DNA from: Herbidospora cretacea
Lineage (GTDB): Bacteria > Actinomycetota > Actinomycetes > Streptosporangiales > Streptosporangiaceae
Direction: 5' to 3'
Length of the DNA stretch: 64,000 bases
Assembly: GCF_001570605.1 (NCBI RefSeq)
Contig: NZ_BBXG01000001.1
Span: 62,001 to 126,000 of the forward strand
The translations under genes and the position numbers were made by a program. This document shows, piece by piece, positions 5,837-49,167 of this stretch. The number at the start of each line of letters is the position of its first letter. Position 1 is the first letter of the stretch. The notes beneath the pieces are model-generated. The model saw only the letters and a list, made by a program, of their open reading frames with translations, did not search any database and was not told the origin of the DNA.

Positions 5837-6751
5837 GTGCTGCCTGAGGTGCTGGCGTGGTCGGGCAGCCGATCGTCGTCGGCGTCCGACTGGCCCCTGT
5901 CCACGGTGCTCGCCGCCAAGGGGGCCACGACGATCAGCGTCGTCCTCCCGGCCAGGAACGAGCGCGAGACGGTCGGCGAGATCGTCGCGGCGATCCGGCG
6001 CGACCTGCCCGGCCTGGTCGACGAGCTCGTGGTGATCGACTCCCGCTCGACCGACGACACGGCCGCCGTGGCGTCGCGGGCGGGCGCGCGGGTGATCGCC
6101 CAGGACGAGATCCTGCCCGACCTGAAGCCGCTCGACGGCAAGGGCGAGGCCCTCTGGAAGTCGCTCGCGGTCACCACCGGTGACCTGCTGGTCTTCATCG
6201 ACTCCGACCTGCGCGAGTTCGAGACCTCCTTCGTGACCGGCCTGCTGGGGCCCCTGCTGGCCGACCCGACGGTGGCGTACGTGAAGGGCTGCTACGACCG
6301 CCCGTTCGGCGCCGAGCAGACCGGCGGCGGCCGGGTGACCGAGCTGGTCGCCCGCCCCCTCATCAACCTCCACTGGCCCGAGCTGGCCGGCTTCGTCCAG
6401 CCGCTGTCGGGGGAGTACGCCGGCCGCCGGACCGCCCTCGAACGGGTCCCGTTCGTGACCGGCTACGGCGTGGAGCTGGGCCTGCTCATCGACCTGCTGG
6501 ACCTGTGCGGCCTCGACGCGCTCGCCCAGGTCGACCTCGGCCGCCGGGTCCACTCCCACCAGTCGACCGAGGCCCTCGGCGGGATGGCCGCGCAGATCAT
6601 GCAGACCGCCTGGTCCCGCCTGACCGGGGTGCCGCTGGGGCGCAGCCAGCTGCGGCTGACCCAGTTCCGGCGCTCGGCCTCGGGGCACGAACCGGTCGAA
6701 CACGATGTCTCCGTGGCCCAGCGACCTCCGATGGCGAGCGTTCTATCCTGA
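5837..6751 (+). CDS. gpgS: Glucosyl-3-phosphoglycerate synthase
   Basis: A GT81-family glycosyltransferase of 304 residues that transfers glucose from an NDP-glucose to 3-phosphoglycerate. The product feeds glucosylglycerate or methylglucose-lipopolysaccharide synthesis. Visible family marks are the GT-A opening (SVVLPARNERETV), the metal/nucleotide region DSDLREFE, and the GYGVELGLLIDL block. The GTG start at 5837 follows a GGGGGGAGG run. The downstream Uma2 gene begins inside this gene, 47 bases before its stop. No methyltransferase or phosphatase of the glucosylglycerate pathway is adjacent. Confidence 0.92.
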   Translation: MLPEVLAWSGSRSSSASDWPLSTVLAAKGATTISVVLPARNERETVGEIVAAIRRDLPGLVDELVVIDSRSTDDTAAVASRAGARVIAQDEILPDLKPLDGKGEALWKSLAVTTGDLLVFIDSDLREFETSFVTGLLGPLLADPTVAYVKGCYDRPFGAEQTGGGRVTELVARPLINLHWPELAGFVQPLSGEYAGRRTALERVPFVTGYGVELGLLIDLLDLCGLDALAQVDLGRRVHSHQSTEALGGMAAQIMQTAWSRLTGVPLGRSQLRLTQFRRSASGHEPVEHDVSVAQRPPMASVLS

Positions 6752-7376
6752 GCTGGTGCCAGCTGACTGGTTCCACACGATCACGCCGCAGCCTCACCCC
6801 CTGACGCTGGACGAATACCGCCTGCTGCCCGGCGACCTGCGGATCGAGATCATCGACGGCTACGTCGCCCACCGGCCCGACCCCTCGCCCGGCCACCAGG
6901 CCGCCGCCCGGGGACTGGCCGACCTGCTGGAGAAGCACGCCCGCGAGGCGATGAACCGGGGCTACGGCTGCCTGACCGTCAACACCTCCGTCGACCTGTG
7001 GCTGCGCGATCTGCCGCTGCACGTCCGGCGGCCCGACGTCGCGCTGTTCCGCTGCCTGAACGGCGACGGCACACTGCGCCCCGTCGACGTGGTGCTCGTC
7101 GCGGAGATCGTCGAGGCCGGGTCGGAGACCACTGACACCTGCGACAAACACACCGAATACGCACGGGCCGGGATCCTGCACTACTGGATCGTGCGGCTCG
7201 ACTCGGGCGGGATCGCCCTGATCGAGCGTTATCGGCTGGATCCGGCGACGATGGCGTACCGGCACATCGGCACGCTCATGCGCGACGAGGGCGGCTCGCC
7301 CGAGATCAGCGCGCCGATCGCGATGGTCATCGACTGGCCGGAGCTCCCAGGGTCGACGCCAGCTGGGCCGGGCTGA
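6705..7376 (+). CDS. Uma2-family putative restriction endonuclease-fold protein
   Basis: A protein of up to 223 residues with the Uma2 (DUF820) nuclease fold. The family core is seen as RIEIIDGYV near residue 45, followed by the RRPDVALFR and VLVAEIVE strands and the EYARAGILHYWIV block; these acidic and basic residues make the PD-(D/E)xK-like site. Uma2 genes are abundant in actinomycetes and their role is unsettled. The ATG at 6705 overlaps gpgS; a GTG at 6756 would give a shorter protein that still holds the whole domain. The 3' end overlaps the convergent potassium channel gene by 50 bases. Confidence 0.8.
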   Translation: MSPWPSDLRWRAFYPELVPADWFHTITPQPHPLTLDEYRLLPGDLRIEIIDGYVAHRPDPSPGHQAAARGLADLLEKHAREAMNRGYGCLTVNTSVDLWLRDLPLHVRRPDVALFRCLNGDGTLRPVDVVLVAEIVEAGSETTDTCDKHTEYARAGILHYWIVRLDSGGIALIERYRLDPATMAYRHIGTLMRDEGGSPEISAPIAMVIDWPELPGSTPAGPG

Positions 7377-8358
7377 GCCGGGCCGAGCCCATGTAGTACA
7401 GGACCGTTCCCCGCGCCAGTTCGGCGTCCCAGGGCGGGTTGACCAGCAGCGTCGCGCCGTCACGGGCGGCCAGCAGGGTCGCGCCGTGGTGGCGGCCCAA
7501 AGCGGTCTGGCAGTGTTCGACCGTCACCGGGCCGACGGTGAGCCGGACCGAGTAGGTGTCGGCGCCGCCGTGGGTCATGAGCTGGGCGTAGAGGTCGCTG
7601 ATCCCCGGATCCTTGAGCTCCTCGGTGATCATGTGCGGGGTGTGCCACTGCACGCAGCGGACCTGGTCGCTGACGTACCGGACGTGCCTGACCCGCGACA
7701 GGTCGCGCAGCGCCACCACCAGATGGGCGGCGGTGATGACGTGGTCGGCGGTCAGCGCGACGGCGAGCGCCTCGTTGTCGTCCCGCGCGTCGACCAGGAC
7801 GCTGTGCGCCTTGTGGACGCCCGCTCTTCGCAGGGTCCCCTCGTCGGCCAGGTCGCCCCGGACGAAGTCCACGTCCTTCTCGGGCATCGGGTGGGTCCGG
7901 GTCTCGTCCCAGGCGCAGACGACCACCTTCGTCCCGTCGGCCGACAGTTCGTCGACCATCGTCTCGGTACGCCCCGGGCTGTAGCCCAGCAGCACGACGT
8001 GCCCGGACAGGTGGACGGTGACCGAGCCGTGCATGCGGCGTCCCCTCGTTCGTTCGATCCGGGTGGCGAGGCGGGTGAACAGCGTCGTCAGCGCGGCGAT
8101 GCCGCCGACGATCACGTAGACGCCCACGGCGTGGCCCGCCGGCGACTTGGGGAACAGGTCGCCGTAGCCCACGGTCGAGGTGGTCACGACGAACCACCAC
8201 CAGAAATTGCCCGGCGAGGTGATGTCGGCGCCTGGTTCGGCCATCGTCATCAGGGGCCAGCTCGTCAGGAACACCACGGCCAGCACGAGCACGGGTGTCC
8301 ACCAGGTGCTGATCCGGGCCAGCAGCCGCGCGATGAAGATCGGCATATGAAACCCCAT
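7327..8358 (-). CDS. Two-TM potassium channel with RCK (TrkA-N) domain
   Basis: An ion channel subunit with one N-terminal membrane helix, a pore loop with the K+ selectivity filter TVGYGD, a second membrane helix, and a cytoplasmic Rossmann-type RCK domain (HVVLLGYSPGRTETMV) followed by a TrkA-C-like end. This is the MthK-like layout; a tetramer is expected, gated by a ligand on the RCK ring. The frame runs up to a TTG at 8388; ATG 8358 (343 residues) or ATG 8346 is more likely, with an AAGGTGA-type site upstream of the former. The C-terminal codons overlap the end of the Uma2 gene on the other strand. Confidence 0.88.
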   Translation of the reverse strand: MGFHMPIFIARLLARISTWWTPVLVLAVVFLTSWPLMTMAEPGADITSPGNFWWWFVVTTSTVGYGDLFPKSPAGHAVGVYVIVGGIAALTTLFTRLATRIERTRGRRMHGSVTVHLSGHVVLLGYSPGRTETMVDELSADGTKVVVCAWDETRTHPMPEKDVDFVRGDLADEGTLRRAGVHKAHSVLVDARDDNEALAVALTADHVITAAHLVVALRDLSRVRHVRYVSDQVRCVQWHTPHMITEELKDPGISDLYAQLMTHGGADTYSVRLTVGPVTVEHCQTALGRHHGATLLAARDGATLLVNPPWDAELARGTVLYYMGSARLSPAQLASTLGAPASR

Positions 8359-8401
8359 TCCGGTGCAGGTCACCTTATATGGGGACAAGCCGAAAATGGA
8401 G

Positions 8402-8443
8402 GAGCCGCGGGCCTTCCGGCGGCGCCCGGAAGACCCACGGCTC
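8402..8443 (-). terminator. Hairpin terminator of the discoidin/beta-helix gene
   Basis: A long imperfect inverted repeat starts with GAGCCGCGGGCCTTCCGG and returns as CCCGGAAGACCCACGGCTC. It lies 22 bases past the stop of the upstream minus-strand gene. There is no U-run, as is common for high-GC terminators. Confidence 0.6.
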
Positions 8444-8464
8444 AGATCGTGGTGGTGCGGTCGG

Positions 8465-11041
8465 CTACGGGTACGAGACCACCTTCGCGGGGATGGTCGC
8501 CGTGCCCTGCGCGGGGCCGCCGGTGGTGTTGATGACGTGGTTGATGATGCCGTTGCCGCCGAGCGAGACGCCCAGGAGGCTGTGGAACTTCACCGTGGAC
8601 CTGATCGGCACCTCGAAGACCCGGTCGACCTGGATGGTCGGGTCGACGTTGAAGTAGACGTAGGAGCCCATGCCCCAGCCCTCGTGGACCTGGACGTTGT
8701 CGCCCACCTTGTAGGCGGCCCAGCCCTTGACGGTGCCGTTCATGTAGGCGGCCTGGTTCGGCGGGTCGTAGGCCTTCTCGTTCTGGAAGAAGATCGTCCG
8801 GCCGCGCTCGCCGTACCACTCGACGTCGTACTTGCGGTAGTGCTCGACGAACAAGCCGGTGGCCAGCACGTCGTCACCGTTCACGATCAGGCCGGTCTCG
8901 GCCGTGTTGACGTTCCAGCCGATGCCCTCGCCGTGGTCGCCGCGCCACAGCCAGGTGTGGTCGATGATCACGTCGTCGCTGTTGACGATCACGCTGGTCT
9001 CGGCGTTGCCCGCGAAGGCGCCGCCGATGCGGACGAACACGTCCTGCAGCGTGGTCGGGTTGGCGGCGTGGTCGGCCGAGGAGCCGGTCGGGCCGACCTC
9101 GATGAGGACGGGGGACTTCTGCGGACCGGCGTCGATCAGGAAGCCCGCGAGGCGGACGCCGTCCACATCGGCGACCTTGACGGCCACCGAGGCGTTCTCC
9201 GGGATGATCGTCGCCAGGCCGAGGCCCAGGACGACGGTGTTGGCCCGGGTGATGTTGATGGGCGCGCTGATCCGGTAGATGCCGGGGGTGATCAGCAGGT
9301 TCAGGCCCTGGGCGAGGGCGGCGTTGATGCGGGCCGCCGAGTCGCCGGGCTTGGCGACGTAGAACTGCGACAGCGGCAGCGAGGTGCCGGGGGTCGCGCC
9401 GTTCGCCCAGCTCTGGCCGCGGGCGTTGGTCCGCAGCGAGGGCAGGAAGACCCGGTAGGCGCCCGAGCCGTCGACGTACAGATACGGCTTCTCACGGCTG
9501 ATCGGGGTGTTCTGCAGCGTCGTGTAGACCGGCTCGGGGAAGCCGTTGGCGGGAGCTCCTGCCACGCCCGAGAAGACCATGTTCCACACGCCGTTGGTCC
9601 AGCCGCCGATGGTGGAGTCGCGGGTGTACCACTGCTGCTGCGAGTAGGGCCCGACGGTGCCGTCGACGCGCGAGTCGGCGATGTAGCCGCCGGACGCCCA
9701 GCCGTAGCCGGTGGGGGCGAGGTTCAGGCCGCCCTTGATCCACATGCGCCGGAACGGCGCCGCCTGCGACACGGCCCACTGGTTGGTGCCGCCGGTCGGC
9801 TGCACCGACAGGTTCTCGGTGGAGCGCCAGAAGTTCTGGGTGGCGTTGCCGCCGAACCAGCCGGCGTCGACGGTGATGCCGCCGTTGATCGTCACGTCGC
9901 CGGGGTTCTGGCCCAGGCCGTAGATCGAGGTGTAGAACCCGACCCTGGCGTTGACGTTGTAGGTGCCCGGCTTGAACAGGAAGGCGTGCCGGCCGGTGCC
10001 GAACTGCGCCGACTCCTGCTGCGTGAACACCGAGTCGAGCTGGCTCTGGATGGTGGCCGTCGGCGTCGAGGGGTCGTAGACGTGGACGTTCGATCCAAGG
10101 TCCCCGCCGCCCTGGATCGGGCCGCCCGGGTCACCCGGGTCCACGGGACCGCTTCCGGTGTAGACGGCGACCTCCCAGAGTGAGTAGCCATAGCCGGTGG
10201 CGCGGGCTGTGCCGTTCACTCTGACGTAGCGGCCGTTGCCCGTCACGGTGTGCGACTGCACGCCGCCGGTCGAGCCGGTCACCGACTTGAGGGTGGTCCA
10301 GGTCGTGCCGTTGGTCGACGACTGGAGCTGGAACGCGGAGGCGTACGCGCCCTCCCAGCGCAGGTCGATCTTGCAGATGTCGACGGCGGAGCCGAGGTCC
10401 ACCTGCACCCACTGCGGGTCGGCCGCCTGGCTCGACCAGCGGGTGGCGTTGTTGCCGTCGAACGCGGCCGAGGCCGGGAACCCGGCGCCCTGCAGCGAGG
10501 AGGCGGTGGCGGGCTTGTTCAGCGCCGCGTTGGTCGTCCCGCAGGTCCCGCCGCTGGAGCCGTCCGGCCCGAAGACCTGGAACTCCCACAGCGAGTATCC
10601 CCACCCGGTGGCCCGGGTGACGCCCTGCATCCGGACATAGCGGTAGGTCCCGCTCACCGCGTAGGTGTCGGTCCCGCCGTCACCTCCGGTGACGTTCTGG
10701 ACATCGGTCCAGGTGGTCCCGTTGGTGGAACCCTGGATCTTGTACGCGCTCCCGTACGCGCCCTCCCACAGGAGGGTCACCCGGTTGATCGCCTGCGCCG
10801 ATCCGAGGTCGACCTGGAGCCATTGGTCGTTGGTGTAGAGGCTGGACCAGCGGGTGGCGGTGTTGCCGTCGACGGCCGCCGAGGCCGGCGTCCCGCCGTT
10901 CTCGGCGGATGATGACGTCGCGGTTTTGCCCTGCGAGAGCAGGACGTCGGCGAAGGCTGGGCCGGCCGGTAAGGCGACCAGCGTGGCGGCCACGACCGCC
11001 GCCGCCGTGCCCCAGGCGGCCAGCCTGGACAGACCTCTCAT
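8465..11041 (-). CDS. Secreted protein with two discoidin (F5/8C) domains and a beta-helix region
   Basis: An 858-residue exported protein. A signal peptide ends near residue 31 (GPAFA). Two discoidin/CBM32-like domains follow at about residues 32-160 and 165-295, each with the NTATRWSS-type core and the WGYSLWE or YGYSLWE ending. After a Gly/Pro linker, about 540 residues look like a right-handed beta-helix of the GH55/pectate-lyase-like superfamily (FLFKPGTYNV, LGLGLATIIPEN, VIIDHTWLWRGDHG). The start ATG has a GGAG site 7 bases upstream. The discoidin domains suggest binding to a polysaccharide or cell surface; the enzyme activity, if any, is not identifiable. It is a single-gene unit closed by a hairpin. 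Confidence 0.85.
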   Translation of the reverse strand: MRGLSRLAAWGTAAAVVAATLVALPAGPAFADVLLSQGKTATSSSAENGGTPASAAVDGNTATRWSSLYTNDQWLQVDLGSAQAINRVTLLWEGAYGSAYKIQGSTNGTTWTDVQNVTGGDGGTDTYAVSGTYRYVRMQGVTRATGWGYSLWEFQVFGPDGSSGGTCGTTNAALNKPATASSLQGAGFPASAAFDGNNATRWSSQAADPQWVQVDLGSAVDICKIDLRWEGAYASAFQLQSSTNGTTWTTLKSVTGSTGGVQSHTVTGNGRYVRVNGTARATGYGYSLWEVAVYTGSGPVDPGDPGGPIQGGGDLGSNVHVYDPSTPTATIQSQLDSVFTQQESAQFGTGRHAFLFKPGTYNVNARVGFYTSIYGLGQNPGDVTINGGITVDAGWFGGNATQNFWRSTENLSVQPTGGTNQWAVSQAAPFRRMWIKGGLNLAPTGYGWASGGYIADSRVDGTVGPYSQQQWYTRDSTIGGWTNGVWNMVFSGVAGAPANGFPEPVYTTLQNTPISREKPYLYVDGSGAYRVFLPSLRTNARGQSWANGATPGTSLPLSQFYVAKPGDSAARINAALAQGLNLLITPGIYRISAPINITRANTVVLGLGLATIIPENASVAVKVADVDGVRLAGFLIDAGPQKSPVLIEVGPTGSSADHAANPTTLQDVFVRIGGAFAGNAETSVIVNSDDVIIDHTWLWRGDHGEGIGWNVNTAETGLIVNGDDVLATGLFVEHYRKYDVEWYGERGRTIFFQNEKAYDPPNQAAYMNGTVKGWAAYKVGDNVQVHEGWGMGSYVYFNVDPTIQVDRVFEVPIRSTVKFHSLLGVSLGGNGIINHVINTTGGPAQGTATIPAKVVSYP

Positions 11042-42426: not shown

Positions 42427-43584
42427 TCACCGGGGGACGCGGGCCGTCTCGACCCAGACGGGCGGCGGCGGGGCGTCCAGGCCGATCAGGGCGGCGATCA
42501 GGCGGCAGGACTCCGGCTCGGCCGGCCACGGCGTGTGCCCGTCCGTCAGGACGATCACCACGTTGGGCCGGTCGGGCCCGGCCAGGGCGGCGGCGATGCC
42601 CACCCGCATGTCGGTGCCTCCGCCGCCCGCCAGCGTCACCTGGTCGGCGGAGGTCACCCGCGAGACGGCGTGGACGTCGGCGTCGCAGGCCAGCACCGTC
42701 ACCCGGTTGCCGTGCACGCCGACCTCCCGGAGCACCCCGGTCACCTCGGCCAGCGCCGCCGCCAGCTCGTCGTCGCCCATCGACCCCGACGTGTCGACCA
42801 CGATCGCCACCCGGGGCAGCGGACGCCGCAGGCTCGGCAGCACCACCCCGCGCATGGCCGCCGACCGGCGCGAGGGGCGGCGGTAGGTGTAGTCGACCGC
42901 GCCGCCCGCCCAGGCGACCGCCTCCCGGACCGCCCCGGTCAGCACCTGCCGCCAGTCGACGACCGGTTCGAGCACCTGCTCGGCCCAGCGCCGCCACCCC
43001 TCCGGCAGGGTGCCCCGGCCGCGCCGGTGGGCCCGCATCGCCTCGGCGGTGTGCCGCCGCAACGACTCGGCCTCGACCGGCCCCACCACGGGCGCGCCCC
43101 CGGCGACCTCCCACGGCGAGGGCCTGCCGTGGGCCCCGGAGCCGCAGTCGAGAAGGTGGTCGTGCGGCGGCAGGGCCGGCACGTACTCCTCGAACAGCCG
43201 CCCCGGCTCCAGGCCGAACAGGCGCGGCTCCATCCGCCCGGCGGGCAGCGGGAGCCGGTCGGCGAGGAGGTCGTCGTTGATCTCGCAGTCCTGGGCGATG
43301 TTCACCCTGGCCCGGTCCCGCTGGTCGGCCGGGGGCAGCCGCCCGGCCCGGCCGTGGTGGTCGCGCAGCAGGTGGGCGACCTCGTGGATCCAGACGGCGG
43401 CCAGCTCGCCGACGGGCGTGGCGTCGACGAAGGCGGGGGAGACGTAGCAGCGCCAGTGCCGGTCGACCCCCATGGTGGGCACCTGCGCGCTGGGGACGAT
43501 CGAGAGGGCGTACAGGGCGGTGGCGAAATAGGGCCGGTCGGTGGCCGCCCGGTACCGGGCGGCCAGCAGCTTCACCCGGTCCAC
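42427..43584 (-). CDS. Metallopeptidase-like plus VWA protein, partner of MoxR
   Basis: A 385-residue protein of the DUF2201 type. The N-terminal domain has the zinc-peptidase motif HEVAH (His67, Glu68, His71) and a downstream acidic stretch. The C-terminal VWA-like domain has the metal-adhesion motif DTSGSMG. Such VWA proteins act with MoxR AAA+ ATPases as substrate adaptors or assembly factors. The GTG at 43584 lies 7 bases after the MoxR stop. It is the last gene of a five-gene operon and is followed by a hairpin. Confidence 0.87.
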   Translation of the reverse strand: MDRVKLLAARYRAATDRPYFATALYALSIVPSAQVPTMGVDRHWRCYVSPAFVDATPVGELAAVWIHEVAHLLRDHHGRAGRLPPADQRDRARVNIAQDCEINDDLLADRLPLPAGRMEPRLFGLEPGRLFEEYVPALPPHDHLLDCGSGAHGRPSPWEVAGGAPVVGPVEAESLRRHTAEAMRAHRRGRGTLPEGWRRWAEQVLEPVVDWRQVLTGAVREAVAWAGGAVDYTYRRPSRRSAAMRGVVLPSLRRPLPRVAIVVDTSGSMGDDELAAALAEVTGVLREVGVHGNRVTVLACDADVHAVSRVTSADQVTLAGGGGTDMRVGIAAALAGPDRPNVVIVLTDGHTPWPAEPESCRLIAALIGLDAPPPPVWVETARVPR

Positions 43585-43591
43585 GGCCGGC

Positions 43592-44758
43592 TCACAGCGC
43601 GCCCGACAACTGGAGCAGGTCGATGAAGGCGTCGATGCCCGGCGGCACCGGCCACGACAGGTCGCGCATCGCGGCCAGGTCCATCGCGGCCCGCGCCGCC
43701 ACGTCGGGGACGCCCGCGTCCACCGCCTTGGCCAGCACCGTCCACCCGGCCTCCCAGCGGCGCTGGGTCAGGTCGCCCTGGACGGCCGCCACGACGGCGG
43801 TCAGGAAGGCCAGCTGGCGGTCGCCCCGGTCGGGCAGCCGGAAGGCGTCGGGATCGGCGAGCACCCGGTTGGGGTCGGGGAGGTCGAGTTCCTCCAGGTA
43901 GGAGATGAGTTCGACGCCCGCGCCGTCGCCCACCGCGCCGACCAGCGCCGCCGCCAGCGCCTCCCGCCCGGTCCCGGCCGCGTAGGCGACGGCGAGGAGC
44001 TTGAGGGCCATCTCCCACGTGCGCGGCGACGGCCACGCCCCGCCCCGGCTCTCCGCGTCGGCGGGCAGGTGGTGCACCAGCCCGGGGCGGGCGGTGAGGA
44101 AGCCCGACACCGCGCCCCGCGCCCGCGCCACCGCGCCCGAGACCCGGGCCGGGTCGACAGCCGGGACGCGCGCCGCCGGCCACGTCCCGGCCAGGCCACG
44201 GGCGACCGTCGCGGGGTGGTGGGTCCAGCGGAGATGGACGAAGCGGTTGGCCAGCGGCGGGCTCAGGTGCCAGCCGTCGGCCGCGCTCGACGGCGGGTTC
44301 GCGGCGGCCACGATCCTGACCGGCTCCGGCAGCGTCAGGCTGCCGACCCGCCGCTCCAGCACCACCCGCAGCAGCGCGGCCTGCACGGCGGGCGGCGCGG
44401 ACGACAGCTCGTCGAAGAAGACCAGCCCGCGCCCGGCCGCGCTCATCCGGACGGCCCAGTCGGGCGGCGCCATCGGCACGCCCGTCACCGCCGGGTCGTC
44501 GCCGACGATCGGCAGCCCGGCGAAGTCGGACGGCTCGTGCACGCTCGCGATCACCGTCTCCAGCGGCAGCCCGAGCCCGCCCGCGAGCTGCTCCAGCCCG
44601 GCCGACTTGCCGATGCCCGGCTCACCCCACAGCAGCACCGGCAGGTTCGCCGACACCGCCAGCGCGAGCGCCTCCAGCTGGGCGCTGGCGGCCGGTTCGG
44701 TCCGGAAGACCCGCAGCCGCCGGTTCAGCTCGTCGGCCGCGGCCAGATCGTCGGTCAT
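43592..44758 (-). CDS. MoxR-type AAA+ ATPase
   Basis: A 388-residue ATPase with Walker A GEPGIGKS near residue 45, Walker B LVFFDELSSA near 115 and the sensor-1 region RIVAAANPP. The C-terminal part (about 200-388) is longer than in simple MoxR proteins. MoxR ATPases remodel or insert cofactors into client proteins, often through a VWA partner, which here is the next gene. Its ATG overlaps the stop of the ankyrin gene (ATGA). The same frame is open far upstream, but only the ATG at 44758 begins the domain. Confidence 0.88.
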   Translation of the reverse strand: MTDDLAAADELNRRLRVFRTEPAASAQLEALALAVSANLPVLLWGEPGIGKSAGLEQLAGGLGLPLETVIASVHEPSDFAGLPIVGDDPAVTGVPMAPPDWAVRMSAAGRGLVFFDELSSAPPAVQAALLRVVLERRVGSLTLPEPVRIVAAANPPSSAADGWHLSPPLANRFVHLRWTHHPATVARGLAGTWPAARVPAVDPARVSGAVARARGAVSGFLTARPGLVHHLPADAESRGGAWPSPRTWEMALKLLAVAYAAGTGREALAAALVGAVGDGAGVELISYLEELDLPDPNRVLADPDAFRLPDRGDRQLAFLTAVVAAVQGDLTQRRWEAGWTVLAKAVDAGVPDVAARAAMDLAAMRDLSWPVPPGIDAFIDLLQLSGAL

Positions 44759-46344
44759 GCCTCGTCGTCTTCCTCGTCCTCGTCGTCGTAGCTCTCGTAG
44801 TCGAGGCCGATGCCCGGGTGGTCGCGGTCGATCTCCGCGCGGAGGGCGGCCAGGTCCCTGCGCCTGCGGCGGCGGATCAGGTCGGCCAGGGACCAGCCCT
44901 CCCAGTCGGTCACGTCGATCCTGGCTCCGGCGGCGCGCAGGGCGTCCACCAGCGCGGGGGTGCCGTAGGCGGCGACCGCGTGGTGCAGCGGGGTGCGCTC
45001 CCGGTAGTCCTCGGCGTTCACGTCGAGGCCCGCCGCAAGGAGGCGGGGGAGCAGGCGCTCCCAGTCGACCAGGTGCAGGACGTGGAGGAGGGTGCGCTGC
45101 CGCCCGTCGCGGACGTGGGGGTCGACGCCCGCGTCCAGGAGGCGGAGCACGGCCTCGGTGTCGCCGTGCTGGGCGTGCGTGAACAGGGCGCGCCGCTGGA
45201 AGCGGAGCTTCCTGGGCAGCCTGCCCAGGCCGGTGGTCCAGGACTGCTGCACGGCGAAACACCCGGCCACCGCCCCGCCCAGGGCGCGCATGGCGCGTTC
45301 GCGGCGCTGCTCGTCCTCGTCGTGGGGGAGCTGGAGGGCGCCGCCGCCGGAGACGACCTCGTGCCAGCCGCCGCCACACCGCACCCGCACCGGGACGGGC
45401 GGCTTCGGTCCCCGCGGGCCGGACGCGACCGGCGGCAGATCGGGGAAGAGGGCCGCGCGGACCAGCGGGTGGAGCTCGTCGGGGGTGAGCAGACCGGCGC
45501 GCAGCAGGTCGAGATCGGGCAGTCGGCGCCAGTAGACCTCGGTCAGTTCGATGTGGGGGCTGTCGGCCCGCTCGCCGACGACCCGCACGGTCAGGCCCGC
45601 CGAGTCAGGTTCGAGCAGGATCGTGTACGGCCACTCGGGGCACTCGACGCAGAACCCCTCCTTCACGCCGAGCGCGGTCAGCCGGGCGACCTCCGCGCCC
45701 AGCCGCGCCACGTCCAGCGGCATCCTGGCCAGCATCTCCACGTGGCCGTCCTGGCGGGAGCGCCCCGGGACGAGTTCCAGCTTCAGCCCGGCCGCCGTGA
45801 ACGCCTCCTCGATCCTGCCCGCGAGGTAGAGGGCGGTCGCGTCGCCGCCGCTGCCGCCCCGCTCTCGGAGTTCGGCCGTGCGCCGGGCGTCCCAGAGGTG
45901 GCGGGCGGCCGACCAGTCGGCGTGTTCGCCGGCGGAGTCGTCGTCGTAGGGGTCGCCGAGGCGCAGCGTCAGGCGTTGCGGGGCCTCGCTCAGGGAGGGC
46001 GTGGTGACGTGGAGCTCCTGGCCGGACCTGTAGCGGGCCAGGGTGATGTGCAGGCGGGTGGCCATGGTCCCGGCGCTGTGGGTGCCCCGGGGCACATGCC
46101 AGCGGAGCAGATCCGGCACGAGATGGCGCATGTCCTCGGCCAGTTCGGAAGGCCCGTCGGCCGGGTCAAGGGCGGTGTCGAAGCCGGTGTCGAAGGCGAT
46201 GTCCACGCCCGCGACGGCGCACGCGCCCCGCCAGTCGCCGGCCAGGCGGCGCTCGGTGGCCTGGGCGATCATCCAGCGGGGGACGGCGTGGCGGCGGGCC
46301 TGGTGCCAGCGGCGCAGTTCCTCGCGGGCCGCGTCGACGGTCAT
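44755..46344 (-). CDS. Ankyrin-repeat protein of unknown function
   Basis: A 529-residue protein. The first 380 residues match nothing I recognise; they are soluble, with a segment CVECPEWPYTILLEP and no membrane helix. The C-terminal 150 residues hold about three ankyrin repeats (DTEAVLRLLDAGVDPHVRD, RTPLHHAVAAYG, ALVDALRAAGARIDVTDWEG), followed by a basic stretch and a very acidic tail. Ankyrin repeats bind other proteins. The ATG at 46344 overlaps the stop of the LRR gene (ATGA) and its own stop overlaps the MoxR start, so it is made in step with both. Confidence 0.8.
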   Translation of the reverse strand: MTVDAAREELRRWHQARRHAVPRWMIAQATERRLAGDWRGACAVAGVDIAFDTGFDTALDPADGPSELAEDMRHLVPDLLRWHVPRGTHSAGTMATRLHITLARYRSGQELHVTTPSLSEAPQRLTLRLGDPYDDDSAGEHADWSAARHLWDARRTAELRERGGSGGDATALYLAGRIEEAFTAAGLKLELVPGRSRQDGHVEMLARMPLDVARLGAEVARLTALGVKEGFCVECPEWPYTILLEPDSAGLTVRVVGERADSPHIELTEVYWRRLPDLDLLRAGLLTPDELHPLVRAALFPDLPPVASGPRGPKPPVPVRVRCGGGWHEVVSGGGALQLPHDEDEQRRERAMRALGGAVAGCFAVQQSWTTGLGRLPRKLRFQRRALFTHAQHGDTEAVLRLLDAGVDPHVRDGRQRTLLHVLHLVDWERLLPRLLAAGLDVNAEDYRERTPLHHAVAAYGTPALVDALRAAGARIDVTDWEGWSLADLIRRRRRRDLAALRAEIDRDHPGIGLDYESYDDEDEEDDEA

Positions 46345-47471
46345 CGGTAGAGGCTTCCGATCGCCACCAGGTCGGGGTGGCCGGGACCGGCCGGGCGCAG
46401 GCGCGCGGTGAACGACCGCTTGACCTTGCGCGGCAGGCCGGGGCCGAGCCCGACGTACTCCAGGCGGGTGTCCTCGGGGACCCGCGTCAGCAGCGCCTTC
46501 GCGCCCCGGCCGGTGAGGCCGGTGTGGCGGAGCTCCAGGCGGCGCAGCGGGCTGCCCGGCAGGGCGGCGGCCAGGGCGTCCGCGCCGTCGTCGCCGGTGG
46601 TGTTGGGGGGCGCGCCGAGGCTGCGCTCCGACGGGGGCCGTCCGAGATCGAGGGACTCGATGCCCGCCAGCGCGGCGGCCAGAGCCGTCGCGCCGCGCGG
46701 GCCGACGCCGTTGCCGCCGAGGCCGAGCCGCACCGTCCTGGCCGGGTCGACGGCGGCGGCGAGCGCCGCCGCGCCGTCGTCGCCCAGGTGGTTGGCCGGA
46801 AGGTAGAGCTCCCGCACGCCCGCCTCGGTGATCAGCGCGGCCAGCAGCGGCGCGGCGTCGGGGCCGAGGCCGTTGCCGCCGAGGAACAGCCGCTCCAGCG
46901 GCGTCTCCCTGTTGGTGAGCGCGGTGACCAGCACGTCGAGGGAGTCCAGGGACAGGCCGGTGTTGACCAGGTCGAGGGTGCGCAGTGTGGTGTTGCGGCC
47001 GAGCATCGCGGCCAGCGCCCGCACGCCCTCCGCGCCGATCGGGTTGCGCTTGAGCCACAGCGCCCGCACGGTGCCGTCGGCGCTCAGCCGCTCGGCGAGC
47101 GCCGCCGTGCCCTCGGGCCCGATGCGGTTGCAGCCGAGGTAGATCGTGCGCAGGCGGTGCCCGCCGGCGAGGGCGTCCGCGACGGCGCGCGCCCCCTCGT
47201 CGCCGATCGCGTTGGTGCCCAGCAGCAGGTGGACGGCGTGCGGCGAGGCCGTCGCCACCGGCAGCAACCTGGCCGCTCCCGGCGCGCCGAGCCCCTGCTT
47301 GCAGAGGTCCACCCGGCCGTCGGGGCGCAGCGCGCCGAGCGGGAACACCTCGTCGGCCTCGACCGCCTGACCGTCGGCCAGCCGGGTGAGCAGCGGGAGG
47401 AGGTCCGCCGCGCTGGCCGGGGGGACGTCGGGGTGCTCGATGGCCGGGCAGCGTACGGGCACAGGCTTCAC
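46341..47471 (-). CDS. Leucine-rich repeat (RNI-like) protein
   Basis: A 376-residue protein with about eight leucine-rich repeats of the ribonuclease-inhibitor kind, each near 25-30 residues. Examples are LRTIYLGCNRIGPEGTAALA, VRALWLKRNPIGAEGVRALA and LERLFLGGNGLGPDAAPLLA. No signal peptide. Two in-frame GTG starts are possible (47477, overlapping the SDR stop, and 47471); a GGTGGAG site fits 47471 better. RNI-type repeats form a curved protein-binding surface. Its place between the SDR and ankyrin genes in an overlapped operon suggests a scaffold or recognition role. Confidence 0.83.
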   Translation of the reverse strand: MKPVPVRCPAIEHPDVPPASAADLLPLLTRLADGQAVEADEVFPLGALRPDGRVDLCKQGLGAPGAARLLPVATASPHAVHLLLGTNAIGDEGARAVADALAGGHRLRTIYLGCNRIGPEGTAALAERLSADGTVRALWLKRNPIGAEGVRALAAMLGRNTTLRTLDLVNTGLSLDSLDVLVTALTNRETPLERLFLGGNGLGPDAAPLLAALITEAGVRELYLPANHLGDDGAAALAAAVDPARTVRLGLGGNGVGPRGATALAAALAGIESLDLGRPPSERSLGAPPNTTGDDGADALAAALPGSPLRRLELRHTGLTGRGAKALLTRVPEDTRLEYVGLGPGLPRKVKRSFTARLRPAGPGHPDLVAIGSLYR

Positions 47472-47473
47472 GG

Positions 47474-48871
47474 TCACCACTCCACCGGTCGGAAGTCCTT
47501 CAGGAAATGTCCGGACAGGGGATGGCCGCCGACCCCCCGGACGATCGGGTCGTACACCCGCGCCGCCCCGTCGACGACGTCGAGCGGCGGCCGGAACCTG
47601 CTGTTCGCCTTCTCCGGGTGAGGCCGCTCGTCGGTGCACCACCCGGTGTCCACGCTGTTCATGTGGATCCCGCTCGCGGCGTAGTCGGCGGCGGAGGTCC
47701 GGGTGAGCATGTTCAGCGCGGCCTTGGCCATGTTCGTGTGCGGATGCCGGACGGTCTTGTTCTCCCGGGAGAAACTGCCCTCCATCGCCGAGACCTGCAC
47801 GACGTACCGATCGGGATGCGGCGAGGCCTCCAGCAGTTCCCGCAGCCGCGAGGTCAGCAGGAACGGCGCGAACGAGTTCACCAGCTGCACCTCCAGCCAC
47901 TCGGCCGCGTCGACCTCGTGCAGCCGCAGACTCCAGCTGTTCCGCTCCCGCAGATCGAGCGGCTGCCCACTCTCGTCGAGCAGTCCAGCGGGAAACAGCG
48001 CCTCGACCTCCTCGGCCGAAGGTGACGCGGCCGGCGGGAAGGCGGCCGTGGCGATCGCATCGTCGCTTCGGGCGGCGATTTCGGATCGTGGCTTCGGCGT
48101 AGGGCCGACTTGCCGGTCGGTGCTGGTCGTGAGGTGGATGGTCGCGGCCAGGCCCTCCAGGGGAAGGGTCTCGGCCGCCAGGACCTCGCGGTGGTAGGCC
48201 GCTGGGCGGCGGATCGTCTGGGCGGCGTTGTTGATCAGGATGTCGAGGTGGTCGAAGCGCTGGTGGACGGTCTCCAGCAGGGCCGCCACCCCCGGCAGGT
48301 CGAGCAGGTCGACGCCGTGGACGTGGAGCCGGTCGAGCCACTCGCCCGCGTCCGGGACCGCTGCGAAACGGCGTGCCGCGTCGGCGGGGAAGCGGGTGGT
48401 CACCAGGACCTCGGCGCCGTCGCGCAGCAGCTTCAGCGCGGTGTGGAACCCGATCTTCACCCGCCCGCCGGTGATGAGGGCGCGGCGTCCGCGCAGGTCG
48501 CAGCGGGCGGTCCGGCGGGTCAGGTTCTCCTCGGCGCACTCGGGACAGAGCAGGTGGTAGACCGGGTGGACCATCCCGTAGACGGCCTTGCAGGTGTAGC
48601 AGCGCCGGGTCCCGGCCAGCGGGCGCGGCCCCGCCGGGGAGACCGTCTCGGGTGCGGGCCCGGGGTTCTGGCTGCGGTGCCGTTCGGTCGCGGCGGAGAC
48701 CAGGTCGTCGTGCTGCCTGCGGTCGGCGTGGCGGGCCGCTTTGCGGGCCTTCTTGCCCGCGCGGTAGACCTGCGCGACGGCTTCCCGGACCGGCGCCCAG
48801 CGCGGGTCGTCGGGGTCGGCGGCGCGGGCTTCCGCGAGCACCCGCAGGCAGGTCTCCACGTCAGAACCCAC
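47474..48871 (-). CDS. Zinc-ribbon SDR-family protein with altered active site
   Basis: A 465-residue protein. An N-terminal basic/helical region (about 1-90) is followed by a zinc ribbon with CYTCKAVYGM and LLCPECAEEN, then a Rossmann domain starting ALITGGRVKIG, with the NNAA strand (ILINNAAQ). In the catalytic segment a Ser is present (VQVSAMEGS), but the YxxxK tyrosine position is Thr (TNMAK). It may bind NAD(P) without classical dehydrogenase activity. The GTG at 48871 has a GGAGGGGG site. It is the first gene of the SDR-LRR-ankyrin-MoxR-VWA operon and lies 27 bases below a tRNA-like element on the same strand. Confidence 0.82.
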   Translation of the reverse strand: MGSDVETCLRVLAEARAADPDDPRWAPVREAVAQVYRAGKKARKAARHADRRQHDDLVSAATERHRSQNPGPAPETVSPAGPRPLAGTRRCYTCKAVYGMVHPVYHLLCPECAEENLTRRTARCDLRGRRALITGGRVKIGFHTALKLLRDGAEVLVTTRFPADAARRFAAVPDAGEWLDRLHVHGVDLLDLPGVAALLETVHQRFDHLDILINNAAQTIRRPAAYHREVLAAETLPLEGLAATIHLTTSTDRQVGPTPKPRSEIAARSDDAIATAAFPPAASPSAEEVEALFPAGLLDESGQPLDLRERNSWSLRLHEVDAAEWLEVQLVNSFAPFLLTSRLRELLEASPHPDRYVVQVSAMEGSFSRENKTVRHPHTNMAKAALNMLTRTSAADYAASGIHMNSVDTGWCTDERPHPEKANSRFRPPLDVVDGAARVYDPIVRGVGGHPLSGHFLKDFRPVEW

Positions 48872-48898
48872 GCGTCCCCCTCCGGCGAAGAAAAATGA

Positions 48899-48970
48899 CA
48901 CGGCCGACCGGATTCGAACCGGCGTCCTCCGCATCGCATTGGGGCGCGACGACCTCTGCGCTACGACCGT
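48899..48970 (-). tRNA. tRNA-like element with intact acceptor, D and T arms but no foldable anticodon arm
   Basis: On the minus strand the 7-base acceptor strand ACGGTCG pairs with CGGCCGT (one G-U). TA occupies positions 8-9, and the D stem is GCGC/GCGC. The T arm has GCCGG, loop TTCGAAT, and CCGGT. Between the D and T stems only about 20 bases remain (about 23 expected), and they do not form a 5-pair anticodon stem with U33. No CCA is encoded. It is either a decayed tRNA or a tRNA-like RNA with another role. No anticodon can be assigned. Confidence 0.6.
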
Positions 48971-49167
48971 GCCGCCGGAAAGGCTAGCGCACCTGACCGA
49001 CAATCCGGATCTTGTTCGCGTATCCGGAAAGACGCGACCGGCCTGCTTCCTCCTCCTTCGCGGGAGACGCGTCGACCGGCCGCGGCGCCCCATGCGTGTC
49101 CTTCCGGAGATGCCGGACACATGCTGCTTAACCTGGGAAAACAGTTCGGTATTCAGGGGGAAGACCC

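Follow-up and report, generated by a model that had tools for sequence, protein, structure and literature searches.

A tRNA-like RNA gene linked to an SDR-LRR-Ank-MoxR-VWA operon in Herbidospora cretacea and other bacteria

What joins a short-chain dehydrogenase/reductase (SDR)-fold protein, a leucine-rich repeat (LRR) protein, an ankyrin-repeat (Ank) protein, a MoxR ATPase and a metallopeptidase-VWA protein in one operon, and are the five proteins the whole of the system? The question is raised by a locus in a stretch of 64,000 nucleotides from Herbidospora cretacea (contig NZ_BBXG01000001.1, positions 62,001 to 126,000; here "the window"). The original prediction described five minus-strand genes, overlapping or at most 7 bases apart, and this description is borne out. 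Each of the five reading frames is uninterrupted; neighbouring genes overlap at three of their four junctions (GTGA or ATGA), and 7 bases separate MoxR and VWA. Pfam recognises adh_short, LRR_6, ankyrin repeats, an AAA_5-type ATPase and DUF2201_N with DUF2201/VWA in the respective products. What that account overlooked is an RNA, though the span it covered, up to position 48970, takes in the gene. A tRNA-like gene, on which ARAGORN and Rfam agree, ends 25 bases before the start codon of the SDR gene on the same strand. This RNA component is the most conserved novel feature of the locus, and the gene set resembles a hitherto undescribed sensing system of RNA and proteins more than a part of normal protein synthesis.

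Distribution of the operon and linkage of the RNA

Genome contigs were scanned with an alignment of SDRs, which yielded at least 589 relatives from many phyla; the best 80 of these were kept. Among these 80, an LRR gene follows the SDR gene in Actinomycetota, Cyanobacteria (L018, L045), Armatimonadota (L022) and Chitinophaga (L044), and tRNA-like genes precede the SDR in the actinobacterial, cyanobacterial and armatimonadotal SDR-LRR loci, not in Chitinophaga. To annotate sixty flanking regions, the five proteins of the window were used together with ARAGORN, and then a covariance model of the RNA family (R1); ARAGORN at a low threshold gave false matches everywhere and was of no use. The order SDR-LRR-Ank-MoxR-VWA, with at least one Ank gene, is present in 36 loci of the whole set, a count that includes a few copies of one genome. 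The five-part layout had been suspected to be a conserved neighbourhood, and the genes do occur together in other genomes; because the same order recurs in the 36 sampled loci, we do not regard the arrangement as a product of chance. The view of the five genes as one unit stands as far as their fixed order is concerned and has to be qualified in that the operon is modular, each module also occurring alone.

With an LRR profile, 56 of the 299 genomes in the GTDB family of the window proved to carry the system, distributed over 18 of 68 genera. A phylum-wide sample added little (2 of 396 genomes, one of them the window's own), as did a cyanobacterial sample (2 of 292, both already known from the SDR scan). 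The system is conserved where it is present and patchy from genus to genus, a patchiness that the original prediction had named as a point to look at. The suggested link with phages was not found: the SDR had no match in phages and the LRR protein none in plasmids, and a location on mobile elements was rejected on these grounds. The operon itself is chromosomal, in a genome of 8.28 Mb.

In nearly every relative, one to six tRNA-like genes lie immediately upstream of the first gene and on its strand. In 10 of the 12 homologous loci compared first, the corresponding place is taken by a tRNA or tRNA-like gene, with differing apparent identities. A tree of 127 SDRs comprises 51 loci with both tRNA-like and LRR genes, four with a tRNA-like gene only, three with an LRR gene only, and 69 with neither. 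One of the three "LRR only" loci (L157) does possess a tRNA-like gene according to R1 (82.3 bits), which brings the linked SDR-LRR loci to 52 of 54; the remaining two are L181, where only about 0.7 kb of contig lies upstream, and the Chitinophaga locus. SDR loci without an adjacent LRR gene have a tRNA-like gene in four of 73 cases, namely in Parabeggiatoa (L020), SAR324 (L043), one Streptomyces (L071) and genome G010 (L193). The SDRs linked to a tRNA-like gene occur at three places in the tree, and at least about six changes of the label are required, so that the linkage does not go back to a single recent duplication. Chance or hitchhiking of tRNA genes was rejected on position, strand and recurrence.

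Three loci of Mycobacteriales (L027, L039, L078) have an ordinary tRNA-Leu(GAG) 285-804 bases upstream of a solo SDR gene. These tRNAs score 33-36 bits with R1, are probably lineage-specific neighbours and were left out of the tRNA-like counts.

The layout varies in several ways. In one genus and in two further genomes (L166, L174-L177, L179, L192) the SDR gene is not beside the LRR gene and the tRNA-like genes directly precede the latter; an SDR gene was present in all 17 genomes tested for it, even where it is not next to the LRR gene. In L151, tRNA-like genes are located within the operon, two ahead of Ank and one ahead of MoxR. Ank genes are tandemly duplicated in relatives, and about nine of them lie between LRR and MoxR in genome G1005, whose giant locus (L231 and L179, G1005:C1, about 494-522 kb) spans about 27 kb with several tRNA-like genes, LRR, the Ank tandem, MoxR and VWA. 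In L003 a partial tRNA-like copy, consisting of the acceptor 5' side and D arm only, lies ahead of a complete copy and suggests birth and decay within the array.

Structure and variation of the tRNA-like RNA

The RNA was compared over 94 distinct sequences (alignment A4). A cloverleaf with acceptor, D, anticodon and T arms is strongly backed by covariation: 90.4% of cells are paired, double changes occur at 18 of 21 pairs, and the covariation score of 0.46 compares with 0.06-0.16 when the partner strand is slid and was reached in none of 500 shuffles. Rfam recognises the RNA only as a generic tRNA. The cloverleaf is shared with translational tRNA, whereas the copy of the window lacks the 7-nt loop with U33 on a 5-bp stem; its anticodon arm has 16 nt with a 6-nt loop (AUGCGA), no U33 and no assignable identity. 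Across the family the D stem is one pair short, with 13-22 unpaired in 83 of the 94 sequences, and CCA is encoded in only seven. A canonical anticodon arm of 5 bp and 7 nt is found in 42 of the 94, of which 31 have U33. Among the SDR-proximal copies of the five-gene clade an atypical arm prevails, which is of the CC-NN-AGC-WGCR-AGCUGG type or shorter; these arms are mostly 16-17 nt long and lack U33, that of the window included.

Variation is greatest in the anticodon arm. In the actinobacterial rows hardly any change is seen in the D stem and loop, the variable loop and the T arm (mean entropy 0.02-0.34 bits), while entropy is highest in the stem and loop of the anticodon arm (1.1-1.3 bits); the acceptor stem is also variable (0.9 bits), yet 98% paired. 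The comparison of close relatives, among which change is concentrated in the loop, is the most telling. In seven genomes of the window's genus the only variable cloverleaf positions are two adjacent bases of the anticodon loop; in another genus an orthologous copy has switched its anticodon from CUC to GGC on a nearly unchanged body, and in a third GUC and GGC alternate. The remaining sets of orthologues changed elsewhere or not at all, so that confinement of change to the loop is a tendency and not a rule.

In the window's own genome R1 assigns 89.1 and 81.9 bits to the two tRNA-like genes and 69.0 bits to the next match. Ten places from among the best matches after these two proved to be ordinary tRNAs, which differ in their D arm and variable loop, and an identity of the tRNA-like RNAs with ordinary tRNAs was rejected. 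Elsewhere ordinary tRNAs reach 77 bits, and high-scoring matches in three genomes that are not known carriers (G025, G028, G008) proved to be tRNA-Ala or tRNA-Pro of the ordinary kind. An R1 score of about 73-77 bits by itself therefore does not identify a tRNA-like gene.

Proteins and modules

The SDR protein was modelled with AlphaFold2 (pLDDT, the predicted local distance difference test, 89.5), and Foldseek matched the model to SDR enzymes in PDB with TM-scores by target of about 0.6-0.8. The Rossmann fold of an active SDR is therefore present, and an NNAA-type motif is likewise shared with classical short-chain dehydrogenases; in contrast, the YxxxK and TGxxxGxG motifs are not. The changed active site noted in the original prediction is confirmed by the catalytic Tyr, which is Thr within HxHTNMAK in all 34 homologues, and by the glycine motif, which has turned from TGxxxGIG into TGGRxKIG; TNMAK and TGGRxKIG are kept in 34 of 34 save for one Ile-to-Leu change. 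A C4 zinc ribbon in the N-terminal part, absent from the classical enzymes, is invariant over the same 34. The protein is probably not a classical dehydrogenase. SDR folds are known to bind tRNA, for example in human mitochondrial RNase P, and the presence of an RNA component shifts the likely role of this protein from a client, as had been considered, to an RNA partner. Proteins 24-30% identical over most of the SDR are encoded by the giant viruses Harvfovirus, Homavirus and Klosneuvirus (BFVD A0A3G5A578, A0A3G5A6W1, A0A1V0SKJ3), so that the family extends unexpectedly far.

The closest solved relative of the LRR protein is ribonuclease inhibitor (RNI; 3.7e-61), of the same repeat type. It differs from RNI in its family motifs DLCKQ, YLGCN and KRNP (alignment A3), in its operon with a tRNA-like RNA, and in having no known RNase partner here. 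The Ank proteins have a conserved N-terminal region without a Pfam match (alignments A2/A6). A search of PDB sequences with SDR, Ank and MoxR gave generic fold relatives only. The pairing of a MoxR ATPase with a metallopeptidase-VWA protein holds at the level of functional motifs: Walker A, Walker B, sensor 1 and the NRF motif are kept in every MoxR homologue, HExxH in 39 of 39 VWA homologues and the MIDAS motif in 37 of 39. With these motifs intact, an ATP-driven and possibly proteolytic output is plausible.

The operon looks like two modules, tRNA-like-SDR-LRR and Ank-MoxR-VWA, that were joined in actinobacteria. The first is also found without Ank-MoxR-VWA across phyla including Cyanobacteria and Armatimonadota. 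The second has a sister trio without tRNA-like, SDR or LRR genes in four other actinobacterial genomes (L234-L237), which may be a separate, simpler MoxR system. Orphan cassettes of a tRNA-like and an Ank gene lie away from the operon in two genomes, the window's own and G837 (Table 1). In the former (L199) the tRNA-like gene, which is the higher-scoring of the two R1 matches mentioned above and has GCA in its loop, lies directly upstream of an Ank paralogue; no SDR, LRR, MoxR or VWA gene is alongside.

Table 1. Features of the operon in the window and of the two orphan cassettes
Feature	Position	Strand	Basis or remark
VWA protein, DUF2201: zincin-like metallopeptidase domain (HExxH) and VWA domain	42427..43584	-	Pfam PF13203, PF09967
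MoxR-type AAA+ ATPase	43592..44758	-	Pfam AAA_5; Walker A/B, sensor 1, NRF motif in 39/39 homologues
Ank protein: N-terminal region without Pfam match and C-terminal ankyrin repeats	44755..46344	-	Pfam Ank_2/4/5
LRR protein, ribonuclease-inhibitor type	46341..47477	-	Pfam LRR_6; best PDB relative ribonuclease inhibitor
SDR-fold protein: N-terminal helical region and C4 zinc ribbon	47474..48871	-	Pfam adh_short; AlphaFold2; Foldseek
tRNA-like RNA gene	48897..48971	-	ARAGORN tRNA-???; Rfam tRNA 40.3 bits; family covariance model R1 81.9 bits; covariation
Orphan cassette L199 (own genome, G000:C14 ~168.3-169.7 kb), tRNA-like	9629-9704		
Orphan cassette L199, Ank	8324-9588		Frameshifted
Orphan cassette L233 (G837), tRNA-like	8337-8411		
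Orphan cassette L233, Ank	6553-8313		Intact

Proposed mechanism, alternatives and known systems

The reading that we favour, tentatively and at somewhat less than an even chance, is a ribonucleoprotein (RNP) sensor in which a tRNA mimic and the SDR, LRR and Ank proteins would be coupled to an ATP-driven MoxR/metallopeptidase-VWA effector. The tRNA-like RNAs of the operon would be displayed as non-decoding mimics, in which the L-shaped body is fixed and the anticodon arm, diversified, serves as bait or identity tag. The zinc-ribbon SDR-fold protein and the RNI-type LRR protein would hold the body, and the Ank protein or proteins may read one particular anticodon arm or a damaged form of that arm. 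If an agent that targets anticodons (a nuclease, a toxin or another enzyme that recognises the arm) acts on the mimic, the RNP would change its state. Driven by the MoxR ATPase, the metallopeptidase-VWA protein would then remodel or cleave a target, with growth arrest, repair or release of a response as possible outcomes. RNA binding, the role as bait or sensor, the trigger and the effector output are the parts that we infer. In favour of this reading are the linkage of the RNA to SDR-LRR loci, the covariation of the cloverleaf, the loop changes among close relatives, the orphan cassettes, the presence of an SDR gene even away from the LRR gene, the altered SDR motifs with the invariant zinc ribbon, the intact MoxR and VWA motifs and the seldom encoded CCA, together with the precedent of anticodon loops contested in tRNA-targeting defences (PMC10264068). 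More doubtful is the specific form of this idea, in which the RNA is the variable part of a recognition system that monitors attacks on the anticodon, is read by the SDR-fold, LRR and ankyrin proteins and fires the MoxR-driven metallopeptidase.

Several observations weigh against the sensor. The numbers of tRNA-like and Ank genes do not correspond one to one, and the searches of PADLOC, phages (with the SDR) and plasmids (with the LRR protein) gave no direct tie to nucleases, toxins or phages. Of the 42 canonical-arm RNAs, the 31 with U33 and the 33 with a purine at position 37 resemble decoding tRNAs. The solo SDR family is highly conserved over many bacterial phyla, most of its loci L021-L092 having no tRNA-like or LRR gene, so that the basic function of the SDR may be unrelated. 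The Ank structure model, for which only four sequences were eligible, was poor (pLDDT 59) and was not used, and at this low confidence no RNA-binding fold is demonstrable. Finally, the sister trio shows that Ank-MoxR-VWA can act without the tRNA-like RNA.

It is possible, though unlikely, that the tRNA-like RNAs do decode, as functional tRNAs in which a single body is combined with many anticodons. Should one synthetase charge this body regardless of the anticodon, one amino acid would be placed at many codons, and the operon proteins might control a regulated mistranslation device. The canonical arms, mostly with U33, and the switch of anticodon triplets among close relatives on an unchanged body are what such tRNAs would show; the atypical SDR-proximal arms of the five-gene clade, the window's too, the seldom encoded CCA and the shortened D stem speak against them. 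We give a similarly small likelihood to a cis-acting element of the operon, a module for processing, stability or attenuation that would sense tRNA-maturation enzymes and control the downstream genes. The tRNA-like gene is indeed upstream and co-directional, often 20-130 bases ahead of the start codon, and L151 has copies before Ank and MoxR, but neither the arrays of up to six tandem copies nor the fast change confined to the anticodon loop on a fixed body is explained in this way.

The proteins might alternatively mature, modify or repair tRNAs or a tRNA-bound cofactor, with the tRNA-like RNA as guide or reference substrate. The tRNA binding of the SDR fold in RNase P fits such a role, which is nevertheless improbable to about the same degree: among the five proteins Pfam found neither a ligase or cyclase nor a kinase or nucleotidyltransferase. 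A protein-only MoxR-vWA conflict or maturation chaperone in line with the original prediction, with the tRNA-like genes as hitchhikers (ordinary tRNA genes or integration sites), is very unlikely. Although the MoxR and VWA motifs are intact and such pairs form the core of described ternary conflict systems (PMC7159879), this leaves out of account the same-strand upstream position in nearly all SDR-LRR loci of several phyla, the distinctness of the sequence family from the ordinary tRNAs inspected in its own genome, and the two stand-alone cassettes of tRNA-like and Ank genes.

The sensor reading can be set against known systems. In MoxR-vWA-centric ternary conflict systems the third component is VMAP, iSTAND, FtsH or a beta-propeller (Kaur et al. 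2020, PMC7159879). The present operon likewise places a MoxR AAA+ ATPase beside a vWA protein together with further proteins, and actinobacteria and cyanobacteria are among the carriers of both. By contrast, none of these third components was detected by Pfam in the five proteins, the bpMoxR model reached 18.6 bits with the window proteins (cut-off 27), and SDR, LRR, Ank and a tRNA-like RNA are not described parts of the ternary systems (PMC7159879). The ternary systems also frequently exchange effector domains behind vWA, whereas the VWA protein of the window ends with DUF2201 and one VWA family without variable C-terminal effectors follows MoxR across the loci.

RNA-repair operons (rtcBA with YrlA) resemble the present one in that a noncoding RNA of tRNA-like or Y-like type is genetically linked to a protein operon, and a Band-7-linked tRNA-like RNA is a further example of this type. 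tRNA-like RNAs are reported as partners of RNA-repair operons (PMC7790460), which lends the repair alternative some support. Unlike in those operons, no RNA ligase (RtcB or ATP-grasp), end-healing enzyme, cyclase, TROVE or Band-7 protein was found by Pfam among the five proteins, the anticodon arm is variable and the RNA occurs in arrays. Phage tRNA arrays, which change in their anticodon loops and so evade host anticodon nucleases (PMC10264068), share the row of tRNA genes and the concentration of changes in these loops, and their setting in a tRNA-targeting conflict is a suggestive parallel. They differ from the system described here, which is chromosomal, has one common body instead of many tRNA types, is fixed in its linkage to a protein operon and often has non-decoding arms.

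PADLOC-DB 2.0.0 gave no match to a known system, only weak partial ankyrin and AAA matches, and a survey limited to the open-licence literature gave no description of a system of tRNA-like RNA, SDR, LRR and MoxR. The operon thus corresponds to none of the four described ternary systems and has no counterpart in PADLOC, nor in Rfam beyond the generic tRNA model.

The carriers share a widely scattered, uncharacterised family of tRNA-like RNAs that is fixed in its linkage to a protein operon, and whose fast-changing segment is the anticodon loop, the part recognised by many tRNA-cutting toxins and defences. Even if the sensor reading fails, genes annotated as tRNAs in carrier genomes may be non-translational, a highly conserved orphan SDR-fold family gains a partner RNA, and a type of MoxR-vWA system is added that the open-licence papers searched do not describe. 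If it is true, bacteria would guard translation by RNA baits in place of protein receptors.

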